Source: Syntrophotalea acetylenica | GTDB lineage: Bacteria; Desulfobacterota; Desulfuromonadia; Desulfuromonadales; Syntrophotaleaceae | NCBI RefSeq assembly: GCF_001888165.1 | Contig: NZ_CP015455.1 | Span: 1-64,000 of the forward strand | DNA: 64,000 nucleotides | Reading direction: 5' to 3' | Shown: in pieces, positions 50,471 to 55,314 of the stretch | How positions within the stretch are numbered: position 1 is the stretch's first letter | Layout of the letters: every line of letters starts with the position of its first letter | Notes under the pieces: generated by a model | Told to the model about the DNA's origin: nothing | What the model saw: the letters and a program-made list of their open reading frames with translations, nothing else | Database searches by the model: none | Program-made: the position numbers and the translations under genes

Positions 50471-50685
50471 CACGGAAGCGGCCCTTGCCGGACGCCATTG
50501 CACCGGAACCGCTGCTGCCTCAACGGGAAAACCCTGCCCTGGAGCTTTTGATCGGGAATATGTATCTGTTCCTCCCTGAAATTCAAGAGAGAGCTCCTGC
50601 CGCAATGGCGGCTGTGCGAAAAAAGTCTAACAGTCGATGGCGAACCGACCAGCCCCCCAAGGGATGGATAATCCCTGTCCTCGGA

Positions 50686-50733
50686 AAAAAATCCCGGTAT
50701 CTGTATGCCTTGCGGCAGACACCGGGATTTTTT
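50686..50733. terminator. Bidirectional intrinsic terminator
   Basis: AAAAAATCCCGGT (50686-50698) and ACCGGGATTTTTT (50721-50733) flank a 22-nt loop. The A/T ends serve either strand: the small genes on plus and the SLOG gene on minus. 50471-50685 holds no gene I can support. Confidence 0.85.
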
Positions 50734-50770
50734 CGTCGCGGTCAAAAGCTAAGCGCCCTGACCCATGCCG

Positions 50771-51328
50771 TCAGGCAAACGACCGGGCAAACAGATCATC
50801 GATCGCTTTTCTGCCGGATTCCTCCAAAAACCTTGTCCCTGTGCCGGCGAAACGGGCATGGCCGATAACCGGTTCCTGGCCGCCGGAGCAGGCGGTCCAC
50901 TCCATCTGCGACCACCGAAACCAGGTATCTTTTTTCTGGTCGAAAACAAACAGTGGCTTGTTGCAGAGCTTGGCGAATTCGGCGCCCCAGCCGGTCCCGC
51001 CCTTGACTGTTTTGTCCGGGAGAATTTCACCGACCACGAAAATCTCCTGGGCATGATTCACCTGATACCAGATACTCTGCAAAATCTTGCGAATTTTGAG
51101 ACTGTCGGTATAGCGCCGGTTCATCAGCCGGGAAACATACCCGAGACTCACATCGCCATGTTTAAGCTCCTCATGATTGAGAAAACGCAGCCCACGCTCT
51201 CGCACCCGGCCGTGCCCTTCGAAGGTAAAATTGACTTCTTCGATGCCGTAACGCTCCGCATTCTCGCCAAAGGCCGCTTCAGCCCCGGTAGCGCCACCGC
51301 TGAAAAGAATGAAATCCTCCTTCTCCAT
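50771..51328 (-). CDS. SLOG-like Rossmannoid protein
   Basis: 185 residues from the ATG at 51328, with AAAGGA seven bases upstream (ATG 51343 is the alternative). N-terminal SGGATGAEAAFGENAERYG resembles the phosphate loop of SLOG/LOG domains; a later TVKGGTGWGAEFAKLCNKPL and conserved Trp pairs (WYQVNH, WFRW) follow. SLOG domains bind nucleotides or nucleotide-derived signals, sometimes in defence or stress systems. Single domain here, no effector fused. Ligand unknown. Confidence 0.65.
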   Translation of the reverse strand: MEKEDFILFSGGATGAEAAFGENAERYGIEEVNFTFEGHGRVRERGLRFLNHEELKHGDVSLGYVSRLMNRRYTDSLKIRKILQSIWYQVNHAQEIFVVGEILPDKTVKGGTGWGAEFAKLCNKPLFVFDQKKDTWFRWSQMEWTACSGGQEPVIGHARFAGTGTRFLEESGRKAIDDLFARSFA

Positions 51329-51513
51329 ACCGAATCCTTTCATGGTTTCTGGTTGCGTTGGAATAATCGTGCCGTTGCTGATAAATGTATCATGCCTATG
51401 GCGGAAACGTAGTGTATTTTTTCAGGGAGCAGGCACAGGTGTCCTCACGCCCCCTGTTGCCGCCGCCGAAACCAGCGGCGCGGGGCCATTGGCAAAGCTT
51501 CCGAACCCGTGCG

Positions 51514-52164
51514 TCAGTGCAGCTGGTTGAGCAACTCCTCCAGCTCGCCAGACATGACGATGTTGTTGTTGTTGACCGCTTCGATGCTGGCCAGCAGATT
51601 CTTGGCCTGGCCGGCGGTCGCTTTAACCTCTTCGGCCACCACCGCGAAACTGCGGCCATGAACCCCGGCCCGCGCCGCCTCGATGGCGGCATTGATGGAC
51701 AGCATCTCCAGATTGAAAGCCACCTGGGTGATCGCCGCAAGGGCTTTTTTCACAGAAGCCGTACTGCCGATGATCTCATCGCCAATCTGGCTGATCTTGC
51801 CGAAAATCTCGCTGTTAAGCTTGCGGCGCCCTTCCTGCACAACGGTATAGAACATTAGAGCCGCCTGGCTGCTGAGAATCTCGGTGCCCTCGCGATGGTT
51901 CTGCCGCAGCATTTCCAGAACCTTGGATGATCCGGTCGCCTCGATAATAAAATCGGTGCGATATTGCTGCATGGCCGCCACCAGATCATCCGGCGTTGGG
52001 ATCTTGCGCTCCCGGGCGGCCGCCACGGCGACGGCTTTCGCATCGCGGTCAACCAGAAACATGACCCGTACCTTGTCGCTGTCAGCAAAAATCTTCAGCA
52101 TTTCGAGACCACCACGCCCCCCGCCCACGATACCGATGGTTAACACCTTGTCTTCTTTTGCCAT
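51514..52164 (-). CDS. Soluble fusion: Rossmann NAD(P)-binding domain plus chemoreceptor signalling tip
   Basis: 216 residues, no membrane segment. Residues 8-110 look like a dinucleotide-binding domain: GIVGGGRGGLEML, a beta-2 ending in Asp (VMFLVDRD), and DFIIEATGSS, similar to homoserine dehydrogenase/GFO-IDH-type N-termini. Residues 115-212 are a chemoreceptor (MCP) cytoplasmic hairpin; the conserved tip reads LSINAAIEAARAGVHGRSFA then VVAEEVKATA. Such a protein could report redox state or a dinucleotide ligand to CheA/CheW. It lacks the usual long coiled coil and methylation sites. Not a family I know by name. Confidence 0.85.
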   Translation of the reverse strand: MAKEDKVLTIGIVGGGRGGLEMLKIFADSDKVRVMFLVDRDAKAVAVAAARERKIPTPDDLVAAMQQYRTDFIIEATGSSKVLEMLRQNHREGTEILSSQAALMFYTVVQEGRRKLNSEIFGKISQIGDEIIGSTASVKKALAAITQVAFNLEMLSINAAIEAARAGVHGRSFAVVAEEVKATAGQAKNLLASIEAVNNNNIVMSGELEELLNQLH

Positions 52165-52729
52165 TTCTGTTACCTGCCTCCTCCTGTATTCATGGCGCCC
52201 GCACAGGCACCACCGACGGACATCCCCTTCCCACCGCCCGGCTCACACCCGCCGACCCCAATTATAGCGGCCGTGCCGGCATTCATGCTCGCCAGACACA
52301 CCAATCCATTTATTCCTATTCGTCAACGACACAAAAAGTTTAGGGTAAAACATAATTTTGGTGATCTCCATACTATTTTTCGGATTGCTCCATGTTTCAG
52401 CTGGTACCACCGCGACAGCCTTGCAAAAAAGGGATGTGTCGTTTCCAAGGATTTTATATCCTTGTTTTATTCCGTAGCACGGAGCTGCCGATCAGAAGCG
52501 TTTCATGGCCACGACACCCGACCGTCAATCCGAGGGATCCTTACCACCAAAACCCGACATTCTGGTATGATTAAGACCACTGTGCTTATACCGCGCTGGT
52601 CGGCAACGCCCTGGGAAAAAATTCCAAAGGCCAGGCGGTGCAGGCCTCCGGAGACATGCAACCGCTGTCATGGCAGCAACCGCCAAACAATCCGGAACAC
52701 GGCATCCGCTGTTTCGAAAAAGGCTTGAA
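52165..52729. other. 565-bp gap between divergent genes; no gene seen
   Basis: Must contain promoters for the Rossmann-MCP gene (minus) and the hybrid kinase (plus). Contains a short AT-rich stretch near 52310-52390 (AAAAAGTTTAGGG, AACATAATTTTGG). Open frames here have no recognisable content or ribosome site. Confidence 0.5.
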
Positions 52730-55314
52730 ATGACTCATAAAAAAACCACCCGGCCCCGACTCACCTGCTTTCTCGCAGCCTTGGGGATATTGCTTTGCGG
52801 TTTCACCCCTGCTGCCCTGGCGCTACCGCACCGCGTCCTGTTTATCAGTTCCTACAACCCGGGATTTCCCACCTTTTTCGATCAGGTTGAGGGGATGTCC
52901 AGACTGTTCCATCAGCACCGAATCCTTCTCGACATCGAATTCATGGATACCAAGCGGTTTCCTTCAGAGGAAAATCTTCACCTTTTCCGCAGAGCCCTGA
53001 CTTATAAGCTGTCCCACATCCGTGCTTACGACGCCATCATCGCGGGAGATGACAACGCCCTTAAGTTCGCCCTGACCGAACAGAGCCGGCTGTTCCGGGA
53101 TCTGCCCATCGTCTTTCTCGGCATAAACGATACCAGCCTGGCGCTGGAACAGAATCTCCATCCCCGCGTTACCGGCATCGCCGAAAAGGTTTCCATGAAA
53201 GAAACCCTGGCCCTCATGGCGAAACTGCACCCCGGAGCCAGGCGCATCGTAGCCATCGCCGACCCTACCACAACCGCGCAGGCGGATCTGCGTACCTTTT
53301 ACGCGGCCAGAACGTCGGTGCCCGAAATCAGCCTGGCCCATCTTTCGCTGGCGGACATGACATTCCAGACACTGGGTGAACGCCTGGCCGAACTGGGTAA
53401 GGATACCCTGGTGCTGCTGATTTCGGCCCACCAGGATCGGGAAGGCATCGGCCTGCCTTTCAGCGAGAGCCTGCAGTTCATCAACGCCCACCTTCCCCGG
53501 CCCCTCTATCACCTGTATTACCACGGCATGGGCGACGGAATTGTCGGCGGCAAGCTTCTCAGTCATGTAGACCAGGGAAAAAGCGCCGCCCGGATGGTGA
53601 TTGACATTCTCCATGGAAAGCCGGTTTCCCGCCTGCCGGTGCAGACCGGTATCCCTAACCGTTATGTTTTCGACTATCGCCAACTGCAGCGTTTCCAGGT
53701 GCCCATTGCCAGCCTTCCGGCCGACAGCACCATCCTTTACCGTCCTGCCTCCTTCTTCCGGACCTATCGCCAGGGGATCTGGGTGCTGGTCTGCCTTCTG
53801 GCCCTTGGAGGTGGCGTGGTGGTGCTGCTGCTGAGCCATTTGCGGCAGCGCCTTGAATCGGAAGAAGCGCTGAAAAAAAGCGAGGAACGGTTCCGCAGCA
53901 TTATTCATTTCTCTCCGATGGGCGTCTTGCAGTATCAGCTCGATGCATCCGATGACCTGGTGCTGACCGGCGTCAATGCCGCCGCCAGAAATATTCTGGG
54001 AGAGGGGCTCGATTCACTTGTCGGCAAAACCATTGAAGAGGCCTTTCCAAAGCTGATCGGGACCGAGGTTCCTGAGCAGTTTCGGCGCATCTGCTCCCTG
54101 GGCACGTCCTGGCACTGTCCTCAGATCAGCTACGAGGATTTTCCTATCAAAGGCACCTACGAAACCCGCGCGTTCCAGACGGGATCACGTAAAATGGCTT
54201 GTTTTTTCTGGGATATTTCGGAACGGACCCGGGCCGAGCAGGCCCTCAAAGAGGCGCTGGACAATGCCCGGAACGCCAGGCAGCAACTGGAGGCGATCCT
54301 CAAATCGGTCTCCGACGGCCTGTTGTTTACCGACCTGGACAACCGCATCATGTTGCTGAGCCGGTCGGCGGAAGAGATGTTGGGCGTTGCCCTTAATGAC
54401 ATCTTCGGCCTGCCCATCGGCCAGGTGATCCAGAACGACGTCCTTTGGGGGGGCTGCATTCGGTAGCCTTCGAAGACCAGGAGGAGACTTCGGTGACCAT
54501 AGGCCTGCCCGATAACCGCGATCATAAAACCCGGACCGTGCAGGCCAACATGGCTGCAGTGCGTAACGAGGAGGGGCTGAAGCGAGGCGTCATCACCCTG
54601 CTGCGGGATATCAGCCGCGAACGTGAGCTCGACCTTATGAAGACCGAGTTCATCTCCACCGCGGCCCATGAACTACGCACCCCATTGACAAGCGTTATCG
54701 GTTTCTCGGAAGTTCTGTTAAAACAGGGGGGATTCAATGAACAGCAGATGGAATTTCTTACTATCATTCATAAAAAAGCCGAAGTGCTGGGTAAGATTGT
54801 GGAAGACCTGCTTGATCTCGCTCGGGTCGACTCGGGCCAGATCATTCGCCTGAAAAAAGACTGGGCCAATATCGGCTCGATCCTGGAACGCTGCGTCTCC
54901 GACTACCGGAGAGCCTGCACGGACCATCATTTCAAAACCGTTCTCCCCGACGAAACGGTCTCCATGCTGGTGGATGACCGCAAGCTGTTTCAGGTCATGG
55001 AAAACCTGCTCAGCAACGCGGTGAAATTCTCCCCCTCCGGCAGCACCGTTCAGATCACCTGCCAACCCATGGAAACCGAGGTCCATATCGCCGTCAGCGA
55101 TCAGGGAATCGGCATGAACCCGGATCAGATCACTCGCATTTTCGACAAGTTTTACCGTGTGGACGCTTCCAATACGGCACGGGAGGGACTTGGGCTGGGC
55201 ATGGGCATTGTCAGAGGCATAGTCGAAGCACACCAGGGACGCATCTGGGTCAACAGCAAACCGGAGCGTGGCACAACCATTTCCTTCACCCTGCCGCGGT
55301 CAACACAAGAATAA
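52730..55314 (+). CDS. Sensor histidine kinase with periplasmic ABC_sub_bind-type domain and PAS domains; frame break at a seven-G tract
   Basis: ATG at 52730. N-terminal signal/anchor (LTCFLAALGILLCGF), then a periplasmic binding-protein-like sensor (residues about 35-340: VLFISSYNPGFPTFFDQVEG, AYDAIIAGDDNALKF, DLPIVFLGIND). One transmembrane helix (about 360-380), a PAS domain, a second PAS-like domain, then HisKA (TAAHELRTPLTSVIGFSEV) and ATPase. The frame breaks at GGGGGGG (54447-54453): the first frame stops at 54466; the second runs 54445-55314. One added G joins them into a protein of about 861 residues. Phase variation or base loss both fit. Confidence 0.85.

Follow-up and report, generated by a model that had tools for sequence, protein, structure and literature searches.

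The analyzed window is a stretch of 64,000 nucleotides from Syntrophotalea acetylenica. It contains a minus-strand gene that starts with an ATG at 52164, runs to a final codon ending at 51517, and is closed by a stop codon at 51514-51516 (Table 1). The coordinates and the length of 216 residues given in an earlier note on this DNA are correct; the gene sits on the minus strand. A scan for promoters and terminators in positions 50600-52750 yielded a signal no higher than that of shuffled sequences.

Table 1. Features of the fusion gene and of the gene downstream of it (window coordinates; residue numbers refer to the 216-residue protein).
Feature	Coordinates	Strand	Basis
Whole CDS with stop, 216 aa, Rossmann module and minimal MCP signaling hairpin	51514..52164	-	orthologs with the same ends, dN/dS
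AGGAGGAGG, Shine-Dalgarno-like, 12 bases 5' of the ATG	52177..52185	-	read from the sequence
Rossmann module, about residues 5-105	51850..52152	-	Pfam matches, structure model
Glycine-rich loop GGGRGG, residues 14-19 (GxGxxG)	52108..52125	-	G14 and G16 in 42/42 module copies outside the close orthologs
Asp39, acidic residue at the end of strand 2	52048..52050	-	D in 41/42, E in 1/42 module copies; strand E32-38
Thr77-Gly78, after strand 4	51931..51936	-	each in 40/42 module copies; strand E72-75
Junction helix (residues 99-116) between the last Rossmann strand and the hairpin	51817..51870	-	model helix starts at 99
Signaling hairpin, residues 117-216, equivalent to Tsr 340-439	51517..51816	-	alignment to 6s1k_E, Pfam
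Hairpin tip, residues 150-180, equivalent to Tsr 373-403; homology-based site of CheA/CheW and trimer contacts	51625..51717	-	alignment, literature
190-residue gene downstream of the fusion	50771-51343	-	

Ten orthologs have a common C-terminal end and near-identical length. The dN/dS ratio of the window gene (Nei-Gojobori) is 0.05, 0.07, 0.06, and 0.12 against the orthologs in the related genomes G002, G001, G005, and G006, respectively, and 0.17 against the more distant G011, while the Rossmann and hairpin parts taken separately give 0.04 to 0.15 against the four nearest orthologs; since dS exceeds 1 in these comparisons, its values are rough. The low ratios indicate that purifying selection is acting on both halves of the protein and that the gene is real. 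No membrane segment is seen in the 216 residues with Kyte-Doolittle windows of 19 residues, the highest mean being 1.24 versus 2.05 in the full-length Cache MCP of a relative, and HAMP is absent among the Pfam matches of the protein. Together with the Pfam matches and the Tsr alignment described below, hydropathy thus upholds the earlier description of a soluble protein in which a Rossmann domain is joined straight to a minimal chemoreceptor hairpin, without HAMP or a methylation region.

In the N-terminal part, Pfam reports NAD_binding_3 (E = 8e-4) and GFO_IDH_MocA (0.02) for the whole protein and DapB_N (5.7e-4) when this part is scanned alone. All Rossmann-type matches of the window protein are under the curated cut-offs; NAD_binding_3 scores 20.5 to 22.2 bits against a cut-off of 24, and the protein of locus L040 reaches 25.9 bits with the same family. 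Among NCBIfam families at E up to 1, an acetaldehyde dehydrogenase family covers residues 7-93 (E = 0.003). The AlphaFold2 model was built from nine sequences, namely the window protein, seven orthologs, and the N-terminus of one kinase; the best model has a mean pLDDT of 84.4 and a pTM of 0.52, and the other four models reach 80.6, 77.9, 66.0, and 65.8. Residues 8-98 are modeled as alternating strands and helices, with pLDDT of 87-95 in the block of residues 11-90. In VIA-align, residues 6-106 superpose on 4lrs_B (Z 12.4, 1.8 Å, 97 residues), on the aldolase-dehydrogenase 1nvm_D (Z 12.3), and on 6nor_B, GenD2 with NAD (Z 12.1); GFO/IDH/MocA-type enzymes also match. The predicted fold is therefore Rossmann, as had been proposed for this part from the letters alone. 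Acetaldehyde dehydrogenase (1nvm, 4lrs), GFO/IDH/MocA, DapB, and homoserine dehydrogenase resemble the fusion in the fold of residues 6-106, the GxGxxG motif, and the acidic residue. NAD-dependent dehydrogenases, however, carry a catalytic domain after the Rossmann part, where the fusion has its signaling hairpin.

The C-terminal half is assigned to a named family. MCPsignal (PF00015) matches residues 129-197 with 54.9 bits against a cut-off of 34.6 (E = 1.2e-14), covering profile positions 26-94 of 172. Seven chemoreceptor families of NCBIfam (E up to 1) match the C-terminal half, each far under its cut-off, and one PHROGs family of unknown function matches residues 129-189. Thus the earlier statement that the design corresponds to no named family stands for the sensor half, whose Pfam matches are all sub-threshold and which is part of a broader unnamed signaling module, but not for the hairpin.

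Residues 99-215 are helical in the AlphaFold2 model, and DSSP marks no break at the tip. Residues 117-216 align in register with residues 340-439 of Escherichia coli Tsr (core unit 6s1k; 100 residues, 28% identity, 2.1 Å, Z 11.1). As both arms fit the Tsr hairpin within 2.1 Å, the modeled chain folds back into a hairpin. Long helices of unrelated proteins, e.g., that of LSD1, also reach Z of 10-11 in the same VIA-align list, and the argument for a hairpin therefore rests on register, identity, and the Pfam match rather than on Z. Because the first model already matched Tsr, tips from a scan of viral contigs for MCP tips (247 relatives, 80 loci kept) were left out of the hairpin alignment. A hydrophobic repeat of 3.5 residues is no stronger than chance in residues 100-164, where 910 of 2000 shuffles are equally high, and is weakly above shuffles in residues 172-214 (63 of 2000 as high). 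As modeled, the fusion is without methylation helices, its hairpin spanning Tsr 340-439 only; the Tsr methylation sites lie outside this range. By the Tsr match, the hairpin has about 14 heptads and is below every described length class of MCPs, of which there are seven, from 24H, the smallest, to 44H (PMC2577667).

The receptor tip is the region of contact with CheA and CheW and between receptors within trimers (PMC4692393, PMC6746300). For its comparison, the Tsr numbering was obtained by adding 223, the offset of the structural match, to the residue number in the window protein. Here N381, E385, R388, and V398 are retained in all 12 carriers of the fusion, while Q374, T375, N376, E391, G395, R404 (replaced by Lys), and N405 are substituted in the window protein, as are both partners of the D363/R415 salt bridge. 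Other positions vary among the 12 carriers: at F373, five have F, four L, one T, and two R; at I377, ten have M and the remaining two L or I; at R404, eleven have K and one Q; at E402, six have E, five A, and one R; and at G395, nine have S, whereas G033 and G194 have G and G057 has A. Of the Tsr residues, D363, R394, E402, R404, N405, and R415 are named in salt bridges or cross-linking tests (PMC6746300). The tip had been called intact; the four positions kept in 12 of 12 carriers agree with this, the seven replaced tip positions and the replaced D363/R415 pair do not, and by these comparisons the tip is intact for the most part but not throughout.

In a set of 98 genomes, made up of that of the window and those of 97 relatives, the fusion is present over all or nearly all of its length, at 50-100% identity, in ten (G000, G001, G002, G005, G006, G007, G009, G011, G012, G033). 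G057 is an eleventh carrier, with 28% identity over residues 9-212. A full-length profile, which includes members of the carrier set and the L040 protein of G194, matches at E of 1e-20 in 11 of 136 genomes of the order, and these are the identical eleven carriers. In an even draw from the phylum, end-to-end matches were found in at least 2 of 395 genomes, the window's and G194, when the best seven candidates per genome were scored; the G194 protein, encoded at L040, was first recovered with an N-terminal profile. The same architecture, for which the earlier note suggested a search in relatives, is thus present in the eleven genomes of the order and the distant G194. Within the window's genus, four of the six genomes carry the fusion, and database records of orthologs come from Desulfuromonadales, Pelobacter, and Desulfuromonas, six of the seven being labelled as metagenome-assembled. 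The fusion is uncommon, retained within one family, and scattered outside it.

Seven further matches in the window's genome (3.2 Mb, 2 contigs) are all MCP-type frames of more than 500 residues. The weak long matches G063:C79 (query 29-187) and G092:C355 (query 20-190) were read out as candidate further fusions, but each proved to be an MCP of some 600 residues that has no Rossmann part; other partial matches, e.g., in G050 (query 40-189), were left out. Among plasmids, 554 records had MCP-type matches, none of which covered 80% of the query.

The Rossmann module extends far beyond the fusion. A profile of residues 1-118, derived from eleven fusions, finds the module in 119 of the 394 genomes sampled from the phylum. 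We read 30 proteins, those of the 29 best-scoring loci beside the window and of L086, an Elusimicrobiales record, a set that is not a random sample. Their outputs comprise 20 histidine kinases, 7 GGDEF proteins, and 1 MCP hairpin (L040), and 2 proteins are cut off at the locus end (L039, L053); Pfam at E of 0.01 reports HATPase_c in 20, GGDEF in 7, GerE in 5, and GFO_IDH_MocA in 19. Ten of the 30 proteins have two tandem Rossmann copies. The kinases and GGDEF proteins of L039-L067 and the L086 kinase share with the fusion a homologous N-terminal module, in one or two copies, that is linked by a helix to the output; this output is a kinase or a cyclase, versus an MCP hairpin in the fusion. Since the module is joined to kinases and GGDEF proteins as well, we regard it as a sensory input domain with three kinds of output. 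No Pfam name was found for it.

Two groups of these proteins have architectures of their own. L047, L048, L050, L052, L055, L056, L060, L061, L063, and L066 encode PAS-type histidine kinases with tandem Rossmann copies. L041, L042, L044, and L046 combine a LuxR-type HTH, the Rossmann module, GAF, and GGDEF on one chain, so that an apparent DNA-binding domain and a cyclase flank the same sensor.

Conservation within the module was counted in 42 copies, which are the 51 copies of the tree minus the window and eight close orthologs, with G033, G057, and G194 included. All 42 have G14 and G16; D39 is present in 41, with E in the remaining copy; A50 is kept in 41, and T77, A44, and G78 in 40 each. 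At position 19, the third glycine of the GxGxxG motif, 31 copies have G, 9 have C, and 2 have A. The window protein itself has both GxGxxG and the acidic residue after strand 2 (G14, G16, G19, D39). In the Rossmann fold, the dinucleotide is held by the glycine loop together with the acidic residue that follows strand 2, and Asp in the latter position usually means NAD, not NADP. The copies were recovered with a profile of the fusion family, which biases them toward cofactor-site residues; still, the most constrained columns include the glycine loop and the acidic residue typical of a dinucleotide site. The dinucleotide type assigned earlier to this fold is in line with these counts, the residues of the dinucleotide site being the most conserved of the wider module.

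In the tree built from these 51 copies, one starred clade unites the window family with G194 and the Elusimicrobiales kinase. G057 is placed with the second modules of the tandem kinases, whose first and second copies each form a starred clade of their own. A single origin of all 12 fusions is rejected by the AU test (p-AU 0.009). The tree program issued warnings that long branches meet and that the bootstrap had not settled, and both G057 and G194 are long branches. Hence more than one origin of the fusion is likely rather than certain.

Potential signaling partners are present in the carriers. A CheW domain over the cut-off and a CheA dimerization domain are found in all 12 genomes, so that the fusion and CheA/CheW co-occur, a point that the earlier note had proposed to check; as CheA and CheW are common anyway, their presence only permits the receptor reading. 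Flagellin is matched in 10 of the 12, with none in G033 (85% complete) and G194 (96%). In the window's genome, CheA-like, CheW-like, and MCP genes lie together at 68.8-72.6 kb (L195 5841-9585), outside the window and about 17 kb from the fusion, with a weak match to the CheA dimerization domain (E = 5e-4), and a CheA/CheW pair at 2.03 Mb has flagellin matches about 0.1 Mb away. In the neighborhoods examined, the fusion gene is outside any che cluster.

The immediate neighbors differ between genera. In genus g3 (L072-L075, i.e., G007, G009, G011, and G012), a divergent sCache-HAMP-MCP gene and a DnaJ-like gene precede the fusion in all four carriers, a diguanylate cyclase is nearby in three of the four, and nifH follows in three of the four. 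In all four carriers of genus g1, the next gene after the fusion encodes an unnamed protein of 190 residues, which has no match in Pfam and no sequence match in PDB. This gene was considered as a clue to the ligand and set aside: its model has a mean pLDDT of 67.7, and Foldseek finds nothing at E of 0.001, the weak matches (best E 3.5e-3) being nucleotide hydrolases such as DNPH1, azoreductases, and others. A link to CO oxidation was also dropped, because genes for a PAS-LytTR regulator and CO dehydrogenase (Prismane/CooS) lie near the fusion in L068, L069, and L070 (G001, G002, and G005), three carriers of genus g1, but were not found in the window or in the examined stretches of other carriers. 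The gene contexts suit anaerobic electron metabolism, yet they vary among genera and prove nothing.

Soluble chemoreceptors as such are already known. TM14 of Thermotoga maritima (PDB 3g67, 3g6b) resembles the fusion in being soluble and without HAMP or a membrane part, and its hairpin aligns with residues 112-216 of the fusion in VIA-align; its solved chain of 213 residues implies a longer hairpin, and it has no Rossmann module. Like the fusion, TM14 is without canonical methylation sites, and it is described as having no ligand-binding domain (PMC12871147). YfmS (PDB 9a72, a cross-linking model with CheW) matches residues 98-216 with its residues 130-248 (119 residues, 2.1 Å, 23% identity); the match to this 286-residue chain is limited to the helical part, so no Rossmann module is seen in YfmS. 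TlpD of Helicobacter pylori is fully soluble and is described as being without the six canonical methylation sites, but its sensor is a C-terminal CZB zinc domain, in contrast to the N-terminal Rossmann module of the fusion (PMC12871147). Cytoplasmic arrays are sandwiches of two CheA/CheW baseplates (PMC3964821). For Pelobacter carbinolicus, 15 MCPs are reported, 12 of them in class 36H, and the word Rossmann is absent from the main text on these MCPs (PMC3543383). Searches of the open-access literature yielded no Rossmann-type chemoreceptor; in two chemotaxis papers (PMC9321776, PMC12016497) the word Rossmann proved to be an author name. Beside the soluble chemoreceptors TlpD, TM14, and YfmS, the fusion is new in its input domain and in how short its hairpin is.

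Based on these observations, we tentatively interpret the fusion as a soluble cytoplasmic chemoreceptor whose NAD(H)-type Rossmann input reports to CheA/CheW, a reading that is nearly as apt to be right as wrong. Its ligand would probably be NAD(H). For the rest, i.e., dimerization, complex formation, kinase control, the sign of the response, behavioral output, and the link to redox, we infer the following scheme. Two copies would dimerize along the junction helix and the hairpin, with the pair of Rossmann domains at one end and the tip at the other, and the bare tip would enter CheA/CheW complexes, perhaps alongside full-length receptors. Occupancy by a dinucleotide, or its redox state, at GxGxxG, Asp39, and Thr77-Gly78 may rearrange the paired Rossmann domains, and this rearrangement would pass down the continuous helix to the tip, turning CheA activity up or down. 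Being without methylation helices, the protein would have no adaptation of its own, so that its signal would reflect an absolute level, and it would depend on neighboring receptors for adaptation.

The same receptor architecture would also suit a pocket that holds another nucleotide-like or small metabolite, such as an acyl or aldehyde substrate, ADP-ribose, or a nucleotide messenger, making the protein a metabolite sensor instead of a redox sensor. The nearest folds are acetaldehyde dehydrogenases, in which the NAD site adjoins the substrate site, other Rossmann-like folds with other ligands, e.g., formyltransferases, match as well, and the third glycine of GxGxxG is replaced by Cys or Ala in some of the 42 copies. 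However, NAD(H) agrees with the GxG loop and with the conserved Asp that follows strand 2, and we regard such a different ligand as somewhat unlikely. The pocket might even be idle, with the Rossmann part serving for dimerization or localization and the tip filling, scaffolding, or titrating CheA/CheW arrays independently of any ligand. Such an array component is clearly unlikely: in kinases and cyclases as in the receptor, the cofactor site holds the best-conserved residues of the module, and the Rossmann half is constrained equally to the hairpin, although the fusion has no adaptation region and TM14 is described as a soluble receptor without a ligand-binding domain (PMC12871147).

The remaining doubts concern the hairpin. 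It may no longer work with CheA/CheW, being a coiled coil for another partner or a part of a non-taxis system; the tip substitutions, the two carriers with no flagellin match (G033 and G194), and the varying genome neighbors are compatible with this, whereas the retention of N381, E385, R388, and V398 and the presence of CheA and CheW genes, both in 12 of 12 carriers, make it improbable. That the gene is a decayed or truncated MCP without function could be suspected from the coverage of just 69 of the 172 MCPsignal positions. This has a negligible probability and is already disfavoured by the C-terminal end and nearly the same length shared by ten orthologs and by dN/dS of 0.05-0.12 against the four nearest of them.

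Known energy-taxis receptors sense redox indirectly, e.g., via flavin-binding PAS domains. If the fusion is a receptor that binds NAD(H) itself, it would tie metabolism to CheA in one step, and the cell could steer according to its metabolic state. Provided that the protein works, its small size makes it a natural test of the minimal chemoreceptor for regulated kinase control. The wider module, with matches in 119 of 394 genomes of the phylum, would represent a sensor family, whose ligand could be found from one purified domain. A broader scenario, possible though rather doubtful, is that the unnamed module senses NAD(H) as a general intracellular input of the phylum (and of one Elusimicrobiales kinase), placed on histidine kinases, on diguanylate cyclases, and, probably at least twice independently, on the barest chemoreceptor tip. 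The latter would result in direct dinucleotide-redox taxis via a very small sensor-bearing receptor, with a soluble domain driving a hairpin of about 14 heptads without HAMP or an adaptation region.

Apart from the fusion, the window contains two overlapping plus-strand frames at 52670-54466 (periplasmic-binding and PAS domains) and 54445-55314 (HisKA-HATPase). In the relative L070, one frame of 867 residues is found where the window has these two. The pair at 52670-55314 thus looks like a split or frameshifted sensor kinase, either natural or derived from sequencing.
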